Positions 11,546-55,301 of a stretch of 55,301 bases of DNA are shown piece by piece. The notes under the pieces are model-generated. The model was not told the origin of the DNA. It saw nothing but the letters and a program-made list of their open reading frames with translations, and did not search any database. Position 1 is the stretch's first letter. Every line of letters starts with the position of its first letter. The translations under genes were made by a program, and so were the position numbers. Source of the stretch: Alphaproteobacteria bacterium (GTDB lineage Bacteria > Pseudomonadota > Alphaproteobacteria > GCA-2731375); the NCBI GenBank assembly GCA_021776235.1, contig JAJFGG010000052.1, positions 1 through 55,301 of the forward strand, in the 5' to 3' direction.

Positions 11546-12824
11546 TCTTGGCTTTGTCCTTCCGGCCGCCAGCGGCGGCATCCCATATCAACCGTGGGTC
11601 AAATGTTTCGGCTGCAATCATCGTGATGACGACGACAGCGGCGAATGACGTTGCCGCCAACCCCGGTTCAATAGACGCGACACTTCCCAACTTCACCAAC
11701 GCCACCAAGATGGCAATCATGAAGACATCGATCATCGACCATCGGCCCACGGCCTCGACCATGCGATACAAGACGGTCCTTTCCCTGGGCCGCCATTTGA
11801 AATCCAGCTGCACGGTCACAAGAAGAAAAGACAGACCGATGAGTTTCGCCATGGGCACCATCACGCTGGCGAAGAAAACCAGCAAGGCCAGCGGCCACAT
11901 GCCGGCCCCGGCCAAATGCACAACACCGCTGATTATCGTGTCCGGCGCCCCTTGTCCGAAAGAAACGACGGTCATAATTGGATAAACGTTTGCCGGAATA
12001 TAAAGGATGAAGGCGCTAAGAAGCAGGGCCCATGTTCGGCTCAAACTGTTGGGCTTTCTGGCATGCAGTGCGGCGCCACAGCGGGGGCAGGGCGCCTGTG
12101 CTGAAGACGTATCTAGTTCGCCCAGCAAGCTGCAGGAATGGCAACTTACATAGTCCGCGTCGAGACGGGGCGGAAGCAGACCGTTTTCCTGGCCTCCGTT
12201 GAACTTGTCCCACATCTGTTTCGGTTCAAGCGCCCGGTCGGCCGACACCATGACAATGATTGCACCGACAAGCGCGAACATTGACGCGCCCAGCGCGATA
12301 TCGGCGAGGTCAATTAGCTTGACGTATGCGACCAGGACGCCCAACAGAAAGACCTCTGTCATTGCCCAGGAATGCAACGTTTCGACGAAACGGAAGGTCT
12401 TTGCCAGACCGGTCCCGGTGCGGCCGCTCAATACGCTGACGAGCAGAAAAGAGGTTAGAGACAGCTTCAATGCGGGTAGGATCACGGCGAGCGCAAGGAC
12501 CAGTATGCCAAGCGGCAGGAACCCCTGGTCCAGGAATTCCAACGCGCCTGATATCAGTGTGCTTTGCTGCTCCCGGCCTTCCAACCTAAATGTCATGAAG
12601 GGAAAGGTGTTCGCGGCGGCAAACAGTATCAATGCGCTGATGTTCAGCGCCAATGCACGGCGCAGGCCATCCTCAGGCTCGCGATAAAGCGTGTGACCGC
12701 AACGGGAGCATACGGCCCGAAATCCTGACGCCAGTTCCTGCTGACGTTGCAGAAGACCGCACTCCTGGCATTCGAACGCGGCGACCGGGCGGAACAACGC
12801 CGGTGGGTCGGCATAATCACTCAT
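11538..12824 (-). CDS. pqiA: PqiA-like inner-membrane protein
   Basis: The 428-residue protein consists of two similar halves. Each opens with a zinc-ribbon-like pair of CxxC motifs (CQECG and CSRCG; CHSCS and CPRCG) and continues into about four transmembrane helices with the LALNISALILFAAANTFPFM and ALLLSAFILYIPANVYPIM signatures. PqiA works with the PqiB tube in moving lipids between membranes. The start ATG at 12824 precedes the first ribbon by a sensible 17 residues. It is the first gene of pqiABC, and its promoter should lie in the 350-base stretch upstream. Confidence 0.93.
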   Translation of the reverse strand: MSDYADPPALFRPVAAFECQECGLLQRQQELASGFRAVCSRCGHTLYREPEDGLRRALALNISALILFAAANTFPFMTFRLEGREQQSTLISGALEFLDQGFLPLGILVLALAVILPALKLSLTSFLLVSVLSGRTGTGLAKTFRFVETLHSWAMTEVFLLGVLVAYVKLIDLADIALGASMFALVGAIIVMVSADRALEPKQMWDKFNGGQENGLLPPRLDADYVSCHSCSLLGELDTSSAQAPCPRCGAALHARKPNSLSRTWALLLSAFILYIPANVYPIMTVVSFGQGAPDTIISGVVHLAGAGMWPLALLVFFASVMVPMAKLIGLSFLLVTVQLDFKWRPRERTVLYRMVEAVGRWSMIDVFMIAILVALVKLGSVASIEPGLAATSFAAVVVITMIAAETFDPRLIWDAAAGGRKDKAKND

Positions 12825-13173
12825 CGTGTCGTCTTAAGGACAACTTGCATTTTTGCTCCTCGCATTGCCACCCGGCCCGTGCCTCGACAAAGGCGGTAAT
12901 CTGTTTACCAGCAAGCTTCCGATGGCCGACGAAATGGCGAAGCGCGCCAACCAGTCCGGTCGAACTTTGTCAGTCCGCTGGACGAAAGACCGCGCCTGCA
13001 ATTGTAAACTTTACACGCGATGTCACCAAACTCAACATCAGGGCAATGTCTATGCCTGTTGGGACTGATAACAAGGACCATTGGTAAAATTCGGCATTTA
13101 TCCATATTCGTCGTGTGTTTCAGTCAATCGCAAATATGCTCCGGCGAGAGGACGGGATTAATCTTGGCGCGGC
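12825..13173. other. Intergenic stretch upstream of pqiA
   Basis: About 350 bases without a convincing gene. It should contain the pqiABC promoter and the end of the TauD-family transcript coming from the other side. The clearest structure is the 13-bp palindrome at 13003-13015. Plus-strand frames here (12853-13068, 12653-13087) lack ribosome binding sites and family resemblance. Confidence 0.5.
13003..13015. promoter_or_regulatory. Palindrome TGTAAA-C-TTTACA, possible operator
   Basis: A perfect 6+1+6 palindrome lies about 180 bases upstream of the pqiA start codon. Its symmetry and AT-rich arms suit a dimeric regulator, but no cognate regulator is identified. Confidence 0.3.
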
Positions 13174-14049
13174 CTATGCCGTAGGGCCGTCGCCCGCAAC
13201 GGTAGTGCGGCGCATCACCCGGCGAAAGCTGTTGTCCCAGGGACGGCCGCGATGCAGGGTCGCGCGGTCATCCCAGATGACCAGATCGCCGACCTGCCAG
13301 TGATGATGATACTGCAAATGCGGTTGCGTCGCCTGTTCCCGCAACGCCGCCAACAGGGCATCGCTTTCCGCCCGTGCCAGGCCGATGATGCCCGCGACGT
13401 GAGAGCCGGCGTAAAGCGCCTTGCGGCCTGTGCGGGAATTGGTTTGCACCAGGGCCTGGGGCACGGGGGGTACTTCAGCTTTTTCTGCATCGAGGAATTT
13501 CGCATCTGCGTCATAGCCCATGGCGGCGCGGGAATGGGCCAGGCTATGTTCGCCGACCATGCCGTCGATCCGGGCCTGCATATCGGCAGACAGGCTATCC
13601 CAGGCGGCGCGTTGATCGGCGAACTCGGTGGCGCCGCCCTCGGGCGGGACTTCGCAGGCGTGCAACAAAGAGGCCAGGGCGGGGATCGCCTTGAAAGATG
13701 AATCCGCATGCCACAATTGATTGCCCAGATTGTAGGACATATGCTCGCTATCAATGGGATAGATCGTGCCGTCCGGGGCAACATTGGTGATATCCGAGAT
13801 TTCATCATGGTTGACGGCCCGGGCTCGATGGCGGCGAATAGACTTTTCCAGGGCGCCGAAATGGCGGGAAAAAGCAATCTGGCTGTCTTCGTCCAGATCC
13901 TGACCGCGGAAAACCAGTACGGCATACTCATCAAGGCCATCCCGGATCGGCAGAAAAGCATCGTGATCCAGGGGTTGGCGCAAATCCATGCCTGTTGCTT
14001 CGGCAGCGAAGCCGATGGCCGCGTTGATGGGCCGAAAGGTTATGCTCAT
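13174..14049 (-). CDS. TauD/TfdA-family Fe(II)/2-oxoglutarate dioxygenase
   Basis: The 291-residue protein carries the iron-binding facial triad of this family: H114-x-D116 in the NQLWHADSSF motif and the distal H266 in DDRATLHRGRPWD, followed by arginines around 277-281 that would bind the 2-oxoglutarate carboxylate. Related enzymes hydroxylate taurine, 2,4-D or alkyl sulfates; the substrate here is open. The ATG at 14049 starts the conserved first strand (ITFRPI). It is downstream of the tandem EthD gene and of a short carboxyltransferase-like fragment on the same strand, so it may belong to a catabolic unit. Confidence 0.92.
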   Translation of the reverse strand: MSITFRPINAAIGFAAEATGMDLRQPLDHDAFLPIRDGLDEYAVLVFRGQDLDEDSQIAFSRHFGALEKSIRRHRARAVNHDEISDITNVAPDGTIYPIDSEHMSYNLGNQLWHADSSFKAIPALASLLHACEVPPEGGATEFADQRAAWDSLSADMQARIDGMVGEHSLAHSRAAMGYDADAKFLDAEKAEVPPVPQALVQTNSRTGRKALYAGSHVAGIIGLARAESDALLAALREQATQPHLQYHHHWQVGDLVIWDDRATLHRGRPWDNSFRRVMRRTTVAGDGPTA

Positions 14050-14086
14050 GAGCTGATCCTACTATGGCTCTTACAGTGGTATTCGT

Positions 14087-14314
14087 TCACGCGCCGTTGA
14101 TGATCCTTTTCCGCTGGTTTCGAAGCGGCGGCGCAGGTATCGCCCGTAGCGTCAGAACCAGAAAATGACGGGTATCCGCCGGCTCGGTTATAGCATCAAT
14201 CTGCTCCTGCGCGCTCCAATGGCCTGTCTTGCGCCGTTTTGCCACCGCCTCCGGCCGGGCCGTATCCAACACCTCAGCCCGCAATTGCGGTATCTTCGAA
14301 ACGTCCCTCCGCAT
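14087..14314 (-). pseudogene. Fragment resembling the N-terminal part of an acyl-CoA carboxyltransferase
   Basis: The 75-residue frame contains VLDTARPEAVAKRRKTGHW and a following AQEQIDAITEP, which closely resembles the N-terminal segment of biotin-dependent carboxyltransferases (typically ARPEAVAKRR, then TARENIADLxDPGSF). After that point the similarity fades and the frame stops; no biotin carboxylase or carboxyltransferase core follows. I read it as a decayed remnant, or a small protein derived from one. It sits between the EthD and TauD genes on the same strand with short gaps (22 and 37 bases), so it may still be transcribed. The resemblance is from memory of the family, not from a search. 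Confidence 0.45.
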
Positions 14315-49380: not shown

Positions 49381-50250
49381 ATGACAGAGCAAGCAAGTAC
49401 GGGAAAAAACGCCGGGCAGTTCGAATTCTGGAATTCTACCAGCGGCGAAAAATGGGTGGCAAATCAGGTGGCGCTGGACCGTCATTTGAGTTCCCTGACC
49501 GATCGTCTGTTTCATCATGCCGCCATTCAGCCTGGTGAGCGGATCATCGATATCGGTTGCGGCACCGGTACCACGGCCCTGCGCGCGGCAGCGGCTGCCG
49601 GCTCGGAGGGCACGGTGCTGGGCATCGATCTATCCAATCCCATGCTGGGCCTGGCCCGCACCCGGGCGCAGGCCCAGGGCGGCGTCGCGAACCTGAGCCT
49701 GGAGATCGCCGATGGGCAAAGCCATGTTTTCGATCCGGCCGCCTTTGATCTGCTGCAATCACGCTTTGGCGTGATGTTCTTCGAGAATCCAACGGCCGCT
49801 TTCGCCAATCTTCGCACAGCGTTGCGCCCAGGCGGGCGGCTATGTTTTGTTTGTTGGGGGCCCCTGTCGGACAATCCCTGGTTTGCCATCCCGCGCGCGG
49901 CCGCCGTTCGTCAACTGGGCGCGCCGGAGGCGACGCCGCCGCGGGCGCCCGGGCCCATGGCCTTTGCCGAGACCGCCTATGTGACCGAGATATTAAGCGG
50001 CGCAGGGTTTCAGGATGTAGAAGTGAAAACAGAGACATGTGACCTGATCGGCGCATCAGACATCTCAGCGACTGCCGACTTTGCCTTGAACGTGGGACCG
50101 GCCAGCCGGCTGATCAGGCTGCATGAACCGTCCCCTACTACCATTGCGGCCATCCACGCCGAAGTTGAGACTGAGCTAACGCCGTACCATGGCGCGGGCG
50201 GCGTAAAAGTTCCGGCCCGGTTGAACTTTGTCCAGGCGCGACAGCCATAG
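49381..50250 (+). CDS. Class I SAM-dependent methyltransferase
   Basis: The 289-residue protein has the SAM-binding motif I (IDIGCGTGTTALRAA), followed by LGIDLSNPMLGLAR (motif post-I) and ALRPGGRLCFVCWG (motif III). The overall form resembles UbiE/COQ5-type and other small-molecule methyltransferases, and the substrate is not evident. It lies 28 bases after the SDR gene and is probably in the same unit. A likely promoter for the next operon follows right after its stop. Confidence 0.9.
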   Translation: MTEQASTGKNAGQFEFWNSTSGEKWVANQVALDRHLSSLTDRLFHHAAIQPGERIIDIGCGTGTTALRAAAAAGSEGTVLGIDLSNPMLGLARTRAQAQGGVANLSLEIADGQSHVFDPAAFDLLQSRFGVMFFENPTAAFANLRTALRPGGRLCFVCWGPLSDNPWFAIPRAAAVRQLGAPEATPPRAPGPMAFAETAYVTEILSGAGFQDVEVKTETCDLIGASDISATADFALNVGPASRLIRLHEPSPTTIAAIHAEVETELTPYHGAGGVKVPARLNFVQARQP

Positions 50251-50257
50251 CCACCTG

Positions 50258-50284
50258 TTGACAAAGTTAAGAAGGGGCTATAAC
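50258..50284 (+). promoter_or_regulatory. Predicted sigma-70-type promoter of the MNIO operon
   Basis: TTGACA (50258-50263) is a perfect -35 hexamer; TATAAC (50279-50284) is a near-perfect -10 after 15 bases, which is slightly short. The ferritin-like gene begins about 180 bases downstream, so a leader of that length would be made. No other convincing promoter is seen in the 218-base gap. Confidence 0.45.
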
Positions 50285-50468
50285 CTTTGGTTGTGTTTTC
50301 TGGTCCTGCTAACTCGGAGAAGTGCTGCTAAGTCTCGAGCCAGGGTGACTCATGGCCCGACCCGTAGGATTTCTGCGGAACGATAGAAAATGATGGACTG
50401 GCCAATGCCGGGGGAGGAGACCAGGCTTTGGTCTTCACAAGGTAGCTGACATCGAGGGGTGTTGTTCC

Positions 50469-52004
50469 ATGACCAATGACGAGAAATTTATTGTTGCGCC
50501 ACCGCAAGACCCTGCGACGTGGTTAACGCCGGCGGAGTTGGCGCTCGTCGCGGACCTCGACCTGAATTCCAACAGGGACGACGTCCTGGCCAGATTGAAA
50601 GGGGACCTCCAGGGGGCGATCGAGGTCGAGCTGGCGACCATTCCGATTTATCTCTACAGCTACTATTCAGTTAAACGAACGGAAAAGACCGGCGAGAACA
50701 TCCGGCCGTGCGACCTGTATGCGAATAAGGCCGGCGGGATGATCATGAGCGTTGCCATCGAGGAAATGCTGCACATGACGTTGTCGTGCAATATCCTCTA
50801 TTCCCTGGGCGTGCAGCCGCAACTCTACAAAAAGGCGCCGGGTCCCTACCCGACCGGCCTGCCCTACCACAAGAAGACGGGACCGGTTGGGCCGGATGGC
50901 AGCGACAAGGTTTTGATCCCGCTCTCGAAACTGTCGTACGAGCAGCTCTGGCATTTCCTGCAGATCGAGTATCCGGAAACGGCCGATGCCTGGCCCGAGG
51001 ACCGGAACTGGCAGACTATCGGCCAGTTCTACTCCTACATCCGCTGCCTTGTCTGCACCAAATTCATCACCGACGATGATTTCACGGCGGGCAGCAAAAA
51101 TACCCAGGTGCAAAGCGACAACTATTCCCCCAACTGTGTGAATTCGATCTACCCGGACGACAGGTTCGATCCGTGGGCCATGCCACCGCCCAACGGCAGC
51201 AGCGGTCAGAGCGCGGCGGCGGTGGCGCAGTACCCAAATTCCCCGGACAGCCATGCCGGCCTGGTGGAGTTATTAACGGTCGATACCAAGAGCTTGGCGC
51301 TGTTGGCGATGGATACGATCTGCGACCAGGGCGAAGGTTACGCGCGGCCATGGGGAGCGGCGGAGCCGACCGACGATCCGTCTAAATCGGAATTTTCCCA
51401 CTACTTCAAGTTTCTCAGGTTGCAGGCGCAGATGGAGGAATACGGGCTGAACCCGAGCCACCAGGAAGGCCTGCCGGCAAACCCCAAGGCCCCGGATGCG
51501 ATCTCGCCGGCGGTGAGCCAGACCGAGCTGGATGAGGTTATCGTAAACTTTCCCGACAACCCGATCACCGCCTGCTATCCGCCCGACCTTCAACCAATAT
51601 CGGACTTCTGCAACGGCGTCTTTCAGTACATGCTGATTATGACCGAGACGGTCTACAAGCTGCCGCCCGAGGAGCAGAAACTCTTCTTCAATATTGGCAT
51701 GCACCGGTCGATGATCTGGGTGCTGGATCCCTTGATCGACATGATGCGCGACATCGAGATCACGGAAGGCCCTTACGCTGGCCCGTCCACGGCCCCGGTC
51801 TTCATGGCGCCGACGTTTGAGAACATCAACCTCGGGACGCGCAAGACCGCGTTTAGCGCTCTGGTCGGCTTGGGCAAAGCAGCCGTCGCTGCATCGGCGG
51901 ATAAATCGTATGCCAGCAGCGTGACAGGCCTTGTCGCGACCGCCACTACGGCCAAAAGCGATGGGCAATCCATGCATCTACCGGATGTGAGCCCATACTG
52001 GTGA
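50469..52004 (+). CDS. Ferritin-like (VioB-type) protein
   Basis: The 511-residue protein contains a ferritin-like domain of the kind found in VioB (iminophenyl-pyruvate dimer synthase) and relatives. A first helix AIEVELATIPIYLYSYYS supplies E52/E54, and a second helix AIEEMLHMTLSCNIL supplies E99 and H102 (ExxH), a likely metal-binding set. The C-terminal region adds helices (FCNGVFQYMLIMTETVYK and MHRSMIWVLDPLIDMM). No signal peptide is seen. It is first in an operon with a Cys-rich protein, an MNIO enzyme and a DUF2063 protein. Its chemistry is unknown; oxidation or metal handling for the Cys-rich partner is a hypothesis. Confidence 0.8.
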   Translation: MTNDEKFIVAPPQDPATWLTPAELALVADLDLNSNRDDVLARLKGDLQGAIEVELATIPIYLYSYYSVKRTEKTGENIRPCDLYANKAGGMIMSVAIEEMLHMTLSCNILYSLGVQPQLYKKAPGPYPTGLPYHKKTGPVGPDGSDKVLIPLSKLSYEQLWHFLQIEYPETADAWPEDRNWQTIGQFYSYIRCLVCTKFITDDDFTAGSKNTQVQSDNYSPNCVNSIYPDDRFDPWAMPPPNGSSGQSAAAVAQYPNSPDSHAGLVELLTVDTKSLALLAMDTICDQGEGYARPWGAAEPTDDPSKSEFSHYFKFLRLQAQMEEYGLNPSHQEGLPANPKAPDAISPAVSQTELDEVIVNFPDNPITACYPPDLQPISDFCNGVFQYMLIMTETVYKLPPEEQKLFFNIGMHRSMIWVLDPLIDMMRDIEITEGPYAGPSTAPVFMAPTFENINLGTRKTAFSALVGLGKAAVAASADKSYASSVTGLVATATTAKSDGQSMHLPDVSPYW

Positions 52005-52056
52005 GCCGCACAAAGCGCTTGAATGTCTCAAAACCTATTTGATGAGTGAGGAAAAA

Positions 52057-52707
52057 ATGTCTGATTCCGGTATCGGCGACCCGACCCCAAAACCGTACCC
52101 TTACGAAGATGCGCCGGATTTTCCCACGGAAATTGGTGTACAGCCCGAGGGTATGCCGTTGCACGCCTGCATGGGGCTGAACAGTTGTCAGGGCGCGGAC
52201 CGTTTCGGCATCGCCGGGCATCCGGTAGACGGGATGCCCAACCAGCAGAATGATTGTGCCGGCCAGGGCTATTGCTCGACGACCGCCAGTCATTCTTGCC
52301 ATGTTCAAAACAATTGCGCCAACCAGGGCGGTTGCGGGCTGTACGGCACAGGCGAGGAAATGAATCAACCTGGCCAGAACGCCTGCCGCTCGCTGGGCTC
52401 ATGTGCGACGCCGATCAACGCGGAGCGCTTCAGCACCAATGGGCCGAACAAGGGCAAGAGCGTTTGGCTGCGCGCTCGTGCCGTTTTCGAGGACAACTGG
52501 CCGACGCTGCAAAAAGAACTGGCCCAGAAACAGACAGATGGAAAAGTTAACTCCGGCCAGCCGTTGCCCAGTACGCCCGGCTCAGTTCCGTCGCTGTTCG
52601 AGGGAAAGGGCCCGGCCTACCTCTGGGTTTCCGATGATAACGAGCAGAGGGGCCATATGGCGGCTTGCGGTTCCAGCGGGCTGAGCGGCGCCGGTGGCTG
52701 TTCCTAA
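52057..52707 (+). CDS. Cysteine-rich protein with C-x5-C repeats, putative MNIO substrate
   Basis: The 216-residue protein has 11 cysteines, at 38, 44, 67, 73, 81, 87, 93, 110, 116, 204 and 215. Five C-x5-C units are visible (38-44, 67-73, 81-87, 87-93, 110-116), with recurring N/G-rich spacers such as CMGLNSC and CAGQGYC. A compact segment KGKSVWLRARAVFE and a Gly-rich end GSSGLSGAGGCS follow. There is no signal peptide, unlike bufferins. ATG 52057 has GAGGA just upstream; ATG 52042 is an alternative. It is followed by an MNIO gene 15 bases later, so it is the natural candidate for modification or metal binding. I do not recognise a named family. Confidence 0.75.
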   Translation: MSDSGIGDPTPKPYPYEDAPDFPTEIGVQPEGMPLHACMGLNSCQGADRFGIAGHPVDGMPNQQNDCAGQGYCSTTASHSCHVQNNCANQGGCGLYGTGEEMNQPGQNACRSLGSCATPINAERFSTNGPNKGKSVWLRARAVFEDNWPTLQKELAQKQTDGKVNSGQPLPSTPGSVPSLFEGKGPAYLWVSDDNEQRGHMAACGSSGLSGAGGCS

Positions 52708-52722
52708 GCCAGAGGCAGCCAC

Positions 52723-53679
52723 ATGGCGGATGCGCATCGCGGCATTGAGACCACGGACCCGCCGAAGCTTGGCCTTGGCCTTGGCCTTCGCAACGTACAT
52801 TTCGACCATATTCTGTCCGAATGGCCAAAGGTCGATTGGTTCGAGGCGATCTCGGAGAACTTCATGGACTCGGGCGGGCGCCCGCGCCATGTCATCCGCC
52901 AGGTGGCCGAGCGCTATCCGGTGGTTTTGCATGGCGTTTCACTGTCGATCGGCAGCAGCGACCCGCTGAACTTCAGCTATCTCGGCAAGTTGAAAGTGCT
53001 GGCCGAGGAGGTGAAACCAGTCTGGATTAGCGATCATTTGTGCTGGACCGGGGTTTTGGGCATGAATTCCCATGATCTTTTGCCGCTGCCGCTGACCGAG
53101 GAAACCCTGAAGCACGTCATCGAGCGGGTCCGCGTGGTGCAGGATTTTCTCGAGCGTCCGCTGATCGTGGAGAATCCGAGCAGCTATTTGACTTTTGCCC
53201 AGTCCACCATCACCGAGCCCGACTTCCTGCGCCGGTTGTCCGACGAGACTGGCTGCGGCCTGTTGCTCGATGTCAACAATGTCTATGTGAGCTGCTTCAA
53301 CGCCGGCACTGATCCGGCTGCCTATATCGAGGCGTTCGCCTGCGAACGGGTGGCGCAGATGCACCTGGCCGGCCATCAGCATTGCGGCACGCATATTATC
53401 GACACCCACGACCAGCCCGTGCGCGCCGATGTCTGGGAGCTGTACCGGCTGGCCTGGAGGCAGACCAACGGCGCCGCCACGTTGCTGGAATGGGATGGCA
53501 ACATCCCGTCGTTCGCGGAATGTCATGCCGAGGTGCTGAAAGCCAAACGCTACATGCACGGGCGCTTCGATCCCGGGCGTGTGACGATGCCGGCCGGCGA
53601 GGGGCCGGAAGCGGTCTCTAACCCCGTGGATTTTCTGGTGCCGGCGGTGATGGGCAGCACGGTCCTGGAGGAGGCATGA
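52723..53679 (+). CDS. DUF692/MNIO multinuclear iron oxygenase-like protein
   Basis: The 318-residue TIM-barrel protein matches DUF692, now called MNIO, whose members MbnB and TglH use two or three iron ions to remodel cysteines in peptides. Family landmarks are GLGLGLRNVHF, ENFMD with E45, VVLHGVSLSIGS (H70), ISDHLCW (103-107), IVENPSSY (E150), LLDVNNVYVS (D183, N185), HLAGH (214-218), DTHDQPV (227-233) and EWDGN (256-260). It overlaps the DUF2063 gene by four bases (ATGA) and follows the Cys-rich gene by 15 bases. Such MNIO-DUF2063 pairs modify a Cys-containing precursor, here most likely the upstream protein. Confidence 0.93.
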   Translation: MADAHRGIETTDPPKLGLGLGLRNVHFDHILSEWPKVDWFEAISENFMDSGGRPRHVIRQVAERYPVVLHGVSLSIGSSDPLNFSYLGKLKVLAEEVKPVWISDHLCWTGVLGMNSHDLLPLPLTEETLKHVIERVRVVQDFLERPLIVENPSSYLTFAQSTITEPDFLRRLSDETGCGLLLDVNNVYVSCFNAGTDPAAYIEAFACERVAQMHLAGHQHCGTHIIDTHDQPVRADVWELYRLAWRQTNGAATLLEWDGNIPSFAECHAEVLKAKRYMHGRFDPGRVTMPAGEGPEAVSNPVDFLVPAVMGSTVLEEA

Positions 53680-54521
53680 GCGCTGACGGTCAGCCTCTGG
53701 AAGCGCTGCAGGGGTGGATGATGAATGCGCTGGTTTTTCCGGGTATGACGCCGCGCGATGAGGTCGAGCAGGTCGTCGCCCATTCGGCGCGCCTAAACGG
53801 CGACGAATGCCTGGCAATCTATCAGCGCAGCTATTACCTGCGGATCCTGAAATGCATGCGCGAGCAGTTCCCAGCCCTCTGCCACGCACTGGGCGAGGAA
53901 TTGTTCACGGATTTCGCACGCGAATACCTCAGGGCGCATCCGCCCGAGAGCTATACGCTGTATGATCTCGGCCGCCGCTTCCCGGGCTATCTGGCTGAAA
54001 CCCGTCCGGACCGTGACGCTGCGGCTGCGCACCGCGAGAGCTGGATCGATTTCATGATCGATCTGGCGACGTTCGAGCGCCAGGTCTTCGTCATGTTCGA
54101 CGCGCCCGGGCACGAGGGCAAGCCATTCGCCGGTGCCGGCGTCGCGGACAACCAACTGCGTTTGCAGCCCTGTTTCGCCCTTGGCGCTTACCAGTTTCCC
54201 GTGGCCTGGTACTATCATGAGGTGCGCAAGGGAAACGACCCACAGTTTCCGCCACACGAAACCTCCTTCGTGGCGCTGGTGCGAAAAGATTATCTGACCC
54301 GTACCCTGCTTCTGAGCCAGTCACACTACATCTTTCTAACCGCTTTGGCCGAGAGCGGTAGCGTCGAACACGCGATCAGTGCCGTGGCCCGGCAATTGGC
54401 TGTACCGCCAGACGATGTGCGGCAGTCCTGGTGGGCACAGGATGGTATTCGACAACGCTGGATCAAGGCCGGGTTTTTTATTTGCGCCGGCTCCGGTCAG
54501 GCTTCGGTTTCAGGTTGTTAG
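53676..54521 (+). CDS. DUF2063/HvfC-type MNIO partner protein
   Basis: The 281-residue protein has the DUF2063 pattern in its N-terminal half: a helix QGWMMNALVFP, RLNGDECLAIYQRSYYLRILKCMREQFPALCHALGEELF, then a Y/L-rich ARE-YLRAHPPESYTLYDLGRRFPGYL region. The C-terminal half is a second alpha/beta region that ends QRWIKAGFFICAGSG. In bufferin and related clusters this protein binds the precursor leader and delivers it to the MNIO enzyme. The start overlaps the MNIO stop by four bases, as is usual for the pair. A 'DNA-binding' name is sometimes given to the N-terminal domain but is not supported here. Confidence 0.88.
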   Translation: MSADGQPLEALQGWMMNALVFPGMTPRDEVEQVVAHSARLNGDECLAIYQRSYYLRILKCMREQFPALCHALGEELFTDFAREYLRAHPPESYTLYDLGRRFPGYLAETRPDRDAAAAHRESWIDFMIDLATFERQVFVMFDAPGHEGKPFAGAGVADNQLRLQPCFALGAYQFPVAWYYHEVRKGNDPQFPPHETSFVALVRKDYLTRTLLLSQSHYIFLTALAESGSVEHAISAVARQLAVPPDDVRQSWWAQDGIRQRWIKAGFFICAGSGQASVSGC

Positions 54522-54525
54522 ACCG

Positions 54526-54541
54526 AATTCGATTTCGAATT
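54526..54541. repeat. Palindrome AATTCGA-TT-TCGAATT after the MNIO operon
   Basis: A perfect 7-bp dyad with a two-base centre lies five bases after the DUF2063 stop codon, between convergent genes. It may help end transcription, though it lacks a T-run and has too small a loop for a standard hairpin. Confidence 0.35.
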
Positions 54542-54584
54542 ACGCAATCCAGGCCGCGACGGCGGCCCGGCGCCCCGACTTGCT

Positions 54585-55301
54585 CTAGACCTCGGCGTAT
54601 TTTTCCACGACATCGCGCCAGGCCAGGACTTCATCCGGGGTGCCAAGGCGTGTCTGCAGACCGGCCATGGGTGTCACGGGGACCAGCAGGCGGCTGACGC
54701 CGGCGGCGGCCAGGGCCGGGATTTCATCCAGGTCGTTGGGCAGCGAGGTGGTAATCTCGATCGCATCGGGATCACGGCCGTGTTCAACCGCGCTGTCCCT
54801 GGCGATGGCAATCAATTCCGCGGGCGCGCCCCGGGCCGGAAAAAAGCCGTCGCCCAGGCGGCCCGCGCGACGGGCTGCCGGCCTGGAATGGCCGCCGACG
54901 ATGATCGGGACGCTGCCGTTGACGGGTTGCGGCCGGCAATAAATGTTGTCGAAGCTGGCGAAGTCACCCTGATAGCTGGCTTTCTCCTGGCCCCACAAGG
55001 CCCGCATGGCGCCGACATAATCATCGGTCCGCGGCCCGCGGTCATCAAACGGCGTACCGATGGCGTCGAACTCCTCGCGCATCCAGCCCACACCGATGCC
55101 CAACAGCACACGCCCGCCGGACATATAATCCAAGGTCGCGATCTGTTTCGCTGTGATCACCGGATTGTGCTGGGGCAGGATCAGGATACCCGTGGCCAGC
55201 TTGATGCGCCGGGTCGCCGCCGCCACATAGGCCATCCAGATCAAGGGGTCCGGCAAGGGCACATCGTCCTGCCCGCCGGCCATCTTGCCGTCATCGGAAT
55301 A
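54585..55301 (-). CDS. LLM-class F420-dependent oxidoreductase, N-terminal part cut by window
   Basis: The frame is open to the end of the window (translation starts ..YSDDGKM), and 238 residues are visible. It matches the F420-dependent LLM subfamily (often TIGR03619-like): DPLIWMAYVAAATRRIKLATGILILPQHNPVITAKQ, GGRVLLGIGVGWMREEFDAIGTPF and PIIVGGHSRPAARRAGRLGDGFFP. Such enzymes reduce or oxidise a substrate using F420 or FMN. The missing N-terminus (about 50-60 residues) lies beyond the window. It is convergent with the MNIO operon and is unlikely to belong to it. Confidence 0.88.
   Translation of the reverse strand, partial: YSDDGKMAGGQDDVPLPDPLIWMAYVAAATRRIKLATGILILPQHNPVITAKQIATLDYMSGGRVLLGIGVGWMREEFDAIGTPFDDRGPRTDDYVGAMRALWGQEKASYQGDFASFDNIYCRPQPVNGSVPIIVGGHSRPAARRAGRLGDGFFPARGAPAELIAIARDSAVEHGRDPDAIEITTSLPNDLDEIPALAAAGVSRLLVPVTPMAGLQTRLGTPDEVLAWRDVVEKYAEV

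Follow-up and report, generated by a model that had tools for sequence, protein, structure and literature searches.

We analyzed a 55,301-nucleotide stretch of DNA from an alphaproteobacterium (assembly GCA_021776235.1, contig JAJFGG010000052.1, positions 1 to 55,301; hereafter the window), in which four consecutive genes on the plus strand appear to form a protein-modification module. These encode a ferritin-like protein (50469-52004, 511 amino acids), a Cys-rich protein with a Buf2-like domain that we propose as the MNIO substrate (52057-52707, 216 amino acids), a BufB-type MNIO of the DUF692 family (52723-53679, 318 amino acids), and a DUF2063 partner of PME-type 1 (53676-54521, 281 amino acids). 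The spacing between them is, in order, 52, 15, and -4 bases, the last value being a 4-base overlap of the MNIO and DUF2063 genes; all of this, along with the coordinates and the strand, agrees exactly with an earlier note on this DNA. The start of the Cys-rich gene is ambiguous: we used the ATG at 52057, with in-frame alternatives earlier at 52039 and 52042. The two enzyme assignments made in the same note are borne out by Pfam, with 352 bits for the MNIO against PF05114 (MbnB_TglH_ChrH) and 65 bits for the partner against PF09836 (DUF2063; cut-off 27.2).

The ferritin-like protein scores 119.2 bits against PF12902 (gathering cut-off 22.3), and no signal peptide is seen on it. Its AlphaFold2 (AF2) model, with a predicted local distance difference test (pLDDT) of 74.7 and a predicted template modeling score (pTM) of 0.81, is matched best by 3hl1 (CC_0557 of Caulobacter; Z 24.1, root-mean-square deviation 2.7, 271 residues), followed by bacterioferritin and Dps proteins at Z ∼10-12; because helical bundles reach such values easily, only the match to 3hl1 is firm. 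Fold and DQGEG motif are common to the window protein, CC_0557, and other PF12902 proteins; unlike these, the window type is tied to, or fused with, the proposed MNIO substrate. Six putative diiron ligands (E54, E99, H102, E167, E289, and H311) are invariant wherever they are covered (31 or 32 of 32 domains), and as a set they would fit a carboxylate/His diiron site. The label "VioB-like" holds at the level of the domain, since the protein partly matches the model of VioB (iminophenyl-pyruvate dimer synthase), but it fails as a strict name: the NCBIfam VioB score of 11.6 bits against a cut-off of 1250 rules out VioB identity, the protein is about half as long as VioB, and its partner genes are MNIO genes.

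The Cys-rich protein contains 11 cysteines, at positions 38, 44, 67, 73, 81, 87, 93, 110, 116, 204, and 215. The C-x5-C repeats reported for it are well founded: there are five such pairs, a number reached in none of 20000 shuffles of its own sequence. No Pfam family matches it at E 1. The arrangement C-x5-C-x5-C is common to window-type Cys proteins and Buf2 proteins, and alignment of the Cys-protein profile with six ordinary Buf2-type proteins by hhalign gives a probability of 97.9%. The two groups differ at the N-terminus, which we compared by hydropathy in place of a trained signal-peptide predictor: the window protein lacks a hydrophobic N-terminus (0.72), as do the 11 unfused Cys proteins tested (0.08-1.47), whereas ordinary Buf2-type proteins reach 1.70-2.43 (n = 8, recovered from 20 control loci). 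Seven streptomycete Cys frames agree in lacking a hydrophobic N-terminus, although their starts are unsure.

The MNIO scores 351 bits with the NCBIfam model of the BufB bufferin maturase, above the cut-off of 310, and 61.1 bits with the MbnB equivalog model, below the cut-off of 325 for membership in the methanobactin family. Ten putative metal-site residues, assigned by analogy with MNIO structures (H70, H105, E150, N151, D183, N186, H214, D227, H229, and E256), are kept in all 33 ferritin-associated MNIOs and equally in 59 of 59 others, a comparison set that includes loci L011, L013, and L015. Residue D49, by contrast, marks the ferritin-associated enzymes, occurring in 31 of 33 versus 3 of the 59 others (L011, L013, and L018). 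PF09836 is also above its cut-off in the four relatives scanned, and the partner reaches 61.6 of the 142 bits set for the NCBIfam HvfC model. The window genome (98% complete) holds a single PF05114 match, the only MNIO found in it, and the gene directly 5' of it encodes the Buf2-like Cys protein. These facts strengthen the idea, put forward in the earlier note, that the Cys-rich protein is the substrate.

The neighborhood is conserved beyond the window strain, so the refutation proposed in the earlier note, confinement of the gene set to a single strain, did not come true. In all, the four-gene set was found in 34 genomes including the window (truncated or broken in L003, L012, and L141), and it is widespread but patchy in two phyla, Pseudomonadota and Actinomycetota, with differing gene order. 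Three layouts are seen. In the first (10 genomes of Pseudomonadota: the window, L003, L004, L005, L006, L008, L009, L010, L012, and L014), separate ferritin-like, Cys, MNIO, and DUF2063 genes follow one another as in the window. In the second (12 genomes: Collimonas L007, G783, G436, G818, G785, G955, G917, G965, G840, G893, G1077, and G1480), the ferritin-like and Cys parts are fused in one frame of 559-769 amino acids, counted from the first possible start, and the MNIO and DUF2063 genes come next; the Collimonas fusion has 691 amino acids. In the third (12 genomes of Actinomycetota: L016 from Streptomyces cahuitamycinicus, L133-L142, which are 10 of 12 further streptomycete loci, and G1639), the order is Cys, MNIO, DUF2063, ferritin. 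The ferritin and DUF2063 frames of L012 are broken, as are frames of L141. Broken or missing parts at L141, L143, and L144 suggest loss in streptomycetes.

These genomes came to light in two kinds of search. A scan of public genomes for MNIOs gave 46 loci, 14 of them with a match to the Cys protein: 12 of the window type and two ordinary Buf2-like loci (L013 and L015). A ferritin-like gene adjoins 11 of the 12 window-type loci, and at the twelfth (L011) the contig starts just 5' of the Cys gene; the remaining 32 MNIO loci (L017-L048) show no ferritin-like gene in the sequence covered. Profile searches in genomes drawn from chosen taxa gave 2 of 15 for the order of the window, the second being a weak match in a short frame, and 15 of 329 for its phylum, where three belong to the ferritin type (the window, G1077, and G1480); the other 12 are weaker (best E per genome 2.9e-8 to 8.8e-4) and, inspected in part, Buf2-like in look. 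For the remaining taxa, the counts include the already known genome at the center of each search: 3 of 345 in the family of L012, 10 of 343 in that of Collimonas (nine of them as fusions, the tenth an ordinary short protein), and 13 of 249 and 2 of 198 in the family and phylum, respectively, of the Streptomyces locus.

To what extent is the ferritin-like gene specific to this type of MNIO locus? An earlier control scan began with 72 loci, one of which (L160) matched ferritin; as it belongs to the fusion locus of G1480, it was removed, and none of the other 71 had a ferritin match. Because many flanks in that scan were only ∼1.5 kb, so that a ferritin gene 3' of DUF2063 would be missed, and because several loci were duplicates of one place, the scan was repeated with wide flanks. 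The 52 controls comprised the 32 MNIO loci L017-L048, with up to 5 kb on each side (in seven, a contig end shortens one or both flanks), together with 20 Buf2-type places flanked by ∼5-6 kb (L183 shorter). None of the 52 contains a match to the ferritin profile, an MNIO is present in 51, and the positives L016, L169, and the window were recovered; since these same ferritin loci were used to build the profile, it could miss a distantly related ferritin subtype. Together, conservation, the fusions, and these controls rule out a chance neighborhood.

The same controls bear on the view that the ferritin-like protein serves iron logistics, supplying or protecting iron for the MNIO or scavenging peroxide near it. 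MNIOs require several irons, and a ferritin fold with invariant putative diiron ligands would suit such a service. Yet loci that hold an MNIO do without a ferritin gene throughout the control set, and where fusion occurs the partner is the proposed substrate, not the MNIO. We consider this explanation improbable.

To place the ferritin-associated enzymes, we built a tree of 92 MNIOs (without the fragment at L143 and without L144, from which no MNIO was retrieved; L169 was fetched later). All 33 ferritin-associated MNIOs fall in one group of 36 rows (support 98/89), whose other three rows are L011, at its contig edge, and the ordinary Buf2-like loci L013 and L015; the window MNIO lies within a set of 15 rows (support 100/99). 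Because ferritin-type MNIOs thus sit beside Buf2-like loci, the tree separately supports the Buf2 kinship of the Cys protein. Fused forms are scattered over the tree, separated by split ones, and we read this as repeated fusion or fission. Pairwise distances of ferritin domains and MNIOs are correlated (r = 0.878 for 29 loci, without L144, L012, and L008), and none of 999 permutations gave a value as high. The correlation reflects joint inheritance of the two genes, and relatedness of the organisms could give the same pattern.

The fusions are also informative about what becomes of the product. On a rival view, the ferritin-like protein would be a further tailoring oxidase that processes the Cys precursor either ahead of the MNIO or once the MNIO has acted, and a peptide or small protein would finally be freed. 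The weak matches of the ferritin-like protein to the biosynthetic protein VioB and its intact putative diiron ligands are compatible with such a function, as is the varying position of its gene, which is expected for a tailoring enzyme. In 12 genomes, however, the proposed substrate and the ferritin domain form one chain, which argues that this domain remains attached to the product and makes release of a peptide less likely. Nor does any protease or exporter recur among the neighbors listed. A tailoring oxidase is accordingly an unlikely role for the protein, if a somewhat less unlikely one than iron supply.

The genes around the module were compared among relatives. Genes for cytochrome P450, patatin-like, THAP4-like, and DyP-type proteins recur near it in some relatives only and for this reason are not counted as core; the P450, the DyP-type peroxidase, and the weak THAP4-like matches point to a possible heme and redox chemistry that is not universal. 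Divergent P450 genes lie near the module in distant relatives (L091 10712-11938 and L094 5305-6678), with a DyP-type peroxidase gene beside one of them (L094 3639-5321). In five loci of Burkholderiales type, related genes of ∼450-490 amino acids stand near the fusion gene (L091 14688-16031, L082 2994-4457, L090 2471-3961, L084 3266-4642, and L086 3588-4934), and in the two loci scanned these have a sub-threshold match to THAP4-like heme-binding proteins. HopA1-family and LanC-like genes lie directly upstream of the ferritin-like gene and on the same strand in L094 (G300; 11793-14107), and they are also found in L006 and L008 (∼74-2388), these two being the only close relatives that have them; the pair may provide a second modification, of the kind found in ribosomally synthesized and post-translationally modified peptides (RiPPs), of the same product.

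This setting matters for the simplest functional proposal, a cytoplasmic copper buffer in which the Cys protein is a bufferin kept inside the cell and the ferritin-like domain a mere scaffold. It would account for a BufB-type MNIO above its family cut-off and for the Buf2-like Cys motifs, and bufferins are described as protecting against copper in the main text of a survey of MNIO neighborhoods by Antoine et al. 2025 (PMC12452194). A scaffold, on the other hand, would have no need of six invariant putative metal ligands, and some of the neighbors are the P450, DyP-type peroxidase, and THAP4-like genes named above, not copper genes. We regard a plain buffer as very improbable.

The TTGACA-type promoter proposed previously did not hold up well: TATAAC follows only 15 bases after TTGACA (50258-50284, plus strand), which as a sequence match is weak evidence, and a scan of 50150-54800 for promoters with spacers of 16-18 found no sites, with 1.4 expected in shuffles. 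Rfam gave no match over gathering in the window, so no RNA element was found. Convergent with the operon, an F420-type luciferase-like oxidoreductase gene on the minus strand (54585-55301) extends past the end of the window. We discarded anti-phage defense, because none of the four proteins matches PADLOC at E 0.01, and phage origin, because neither the ferritin-like nor the Cys protein matches PHROG at that threshold. No plasmid copies of the Cys protein were found at E 1e-5.

It is instructive to compare the module with known MNIO systems, among the closest of which are Buf2 (BufA2-BufB-BufC) and the proposed captophorin class: as in the window, a BufB-type MNIO gene lies directly 3' of the Cys gene and is followed by DUF2063, and the C-x5-C-x5-C motif with its N and G residues is common to both. 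The window Cys protein differs in its larger size, in having no visible signal peptide, and in its ferritin-like partner or fusion; window-type Cys proteins add a conserved C-terminal region, ATPINAERF...SVW.RAR..F, and DoxX was not seen among the window-type neighbors tested. Two Buf2-type relatives are of interest here. A verrucomicrobial Buf2-like protein (L013 4389-4823) has a Tat-like N-terminus, below the cut-off of the model, and a W.KAR..FE segment common with the signal-less Cys proteins; another Buf2 protein (L101 1471-1944) has a lipobox-like N-terminus and consists of two copies of a six-Cys unit.

Two further comparisons are with systems as described in the main text of PMC12452194. 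The putative adjamnio-I precursors (Table 2) are, like the window protein, signal-less, with 122-293 amino acids, 8-21 Cys, and a gene 5' of the MNIO; they are reported with PME-type 2, whereas the window partner carries the DUF2063 signature, which is PME-type 1. By these descriptions the two groups may overlap. In bufferin fusions with MerC or with cytochrome c / FGE-sulfatase, a bufferin domain is joined to a domain related to metals or redox chemistry, much as in the ferritin-Cys fusions; in the MerC fusions the bufferin domain is periplasmic, unlike the module proposed here to be cytoplasmic. The words "ferritin" and "VioB" are absent from that main text, and no description of an MNIO, DUF692, or DUF2063 gene with a ferritin partner was found in the full texts searched, a scope that leaves supplements and most subscription papers outside. 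What these searches did bring up concerns other subjects: a Caulobacter copper study that mentions ferritin in a reference, work on H. influenzae in which ferritin stands for Dps, and papers that are medical by their titles. For the main texts covered, the earlier note is thus right that such a system is undescribed, although adjamnio-I could include Cys proteins of this kind. We regard the module as a variant among bufferin-type MNIO systems.

Taken together, a conserved four-gene set, fusions, Cys proteins with no signal peptide by hydropathy, and intact putative MNIO and diiron residues lead us to the reading that we favor, by a modest degree of confidence: the module would yield a bufferin relative of protein size that stays in the cytoplasm, its Cys domain modified by the MNIO and working next to a diiron domain or joined to it. 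The product would then be a modified cytoplasmic protein and not a peptide for export. Oxidation of the C-x5-C cysteines in the Buf2-like domain would fall to the MNIO together with its DUF2063 partner, and the likeliest products are 5-thiooxazoles like those of bufferins and captophorins; this chemistry we infer from the known families, since according to PMC12668002 every characterized MNIO-PME1 case makes 5-thiooxazoles and the products generally bind copper. Buf1 and Buf2 are described in PMC12452194 as absorbing near 305 nm. Once modified, the domain would not leave the ferritin-like diiron protein, being a subunit of its own in the window and part of a single chain in the fusions, and the two together would form a protein that handles metal, or O2 or peroxide, with Cu(I) or some other soft metal bound by the Cys arm and redox chemistry left to the diiron domain. 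Copper, the joint action of both domains, and a physiological role are conjectural. A bolder version, which we offer as a tentative and rather doubtful possibility, is that a diiron enzyme carries the MNIO-made heterocycles as intrinsic metal ligands: the Cys arm would deliver or hold copper, or another electron carrier, for use at the ferritin-like O2/peroxide site, and the result would be a two-metal oxidase whose second site arises by RiPP-type modification of a full-size cytoplasmic protein.

Several observations weigh against the favored reading of a cytoplasmic, diiron-linked bufferin relative. The BufA2 model gives the window Cys protein only 14.4 bits (cut-off 60, E 0.033) and matches just 4 of 8 ferritin-type relatives scanned at E 0.1; failure at the family cut-off, with the lack of a signal peptide by hydropathy, rules out a plain BufA2 bufferin. 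The profile likeness to Buf2 is itself weakened, because Cys-rich composition can inflate profile matches. In the AF2 model of a fusion, the Cys half is mostly below pLDDT 50, so that contact between the halves is unsupported. Single-sequence queries found the set in 1 of 11 genomes of the window's genus and 1 of 289 of its class, in each case the window itself. L003 keeps only the C-terminal part of the ferritin, and the streptomycete loci L143 and L144 look decayed. Finally, no copper genes were recognized among the neighbors tested, save a sub-threshold ScsC_N match inside a P450. As for the window, its open frames and intact key residues rule out a strain-specific or decayed operon, yet L003, L012, L141, L143, and L144 have broken, partial, or missing genes.

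The importance of the module lies in how it departs from the pattern reported in the text of PMC12452194, in which MNIOs with PME-type 1 accompany precursors bearing Sec signal peptides, those with PME-type 2 accompany signal-less ones, and the PME-type 1 partner is proposed possibly to mask the signal peptide. Here an enzyme pair of PME-type 1 accompanies putative substrates that are signal-less and protein-sized, some lying within ferritin-like chains of 559-769 amino acids, and this breaks that pattern. If our reading is true, MNIO chemistry would no longer be confined to peptides but would also cover full-size proteins carrying a second metal domain. The rule that links PME-type 1 to signal peptides would have to be revised, and PF12902, a ferritin-like family, would acquire a testable role.

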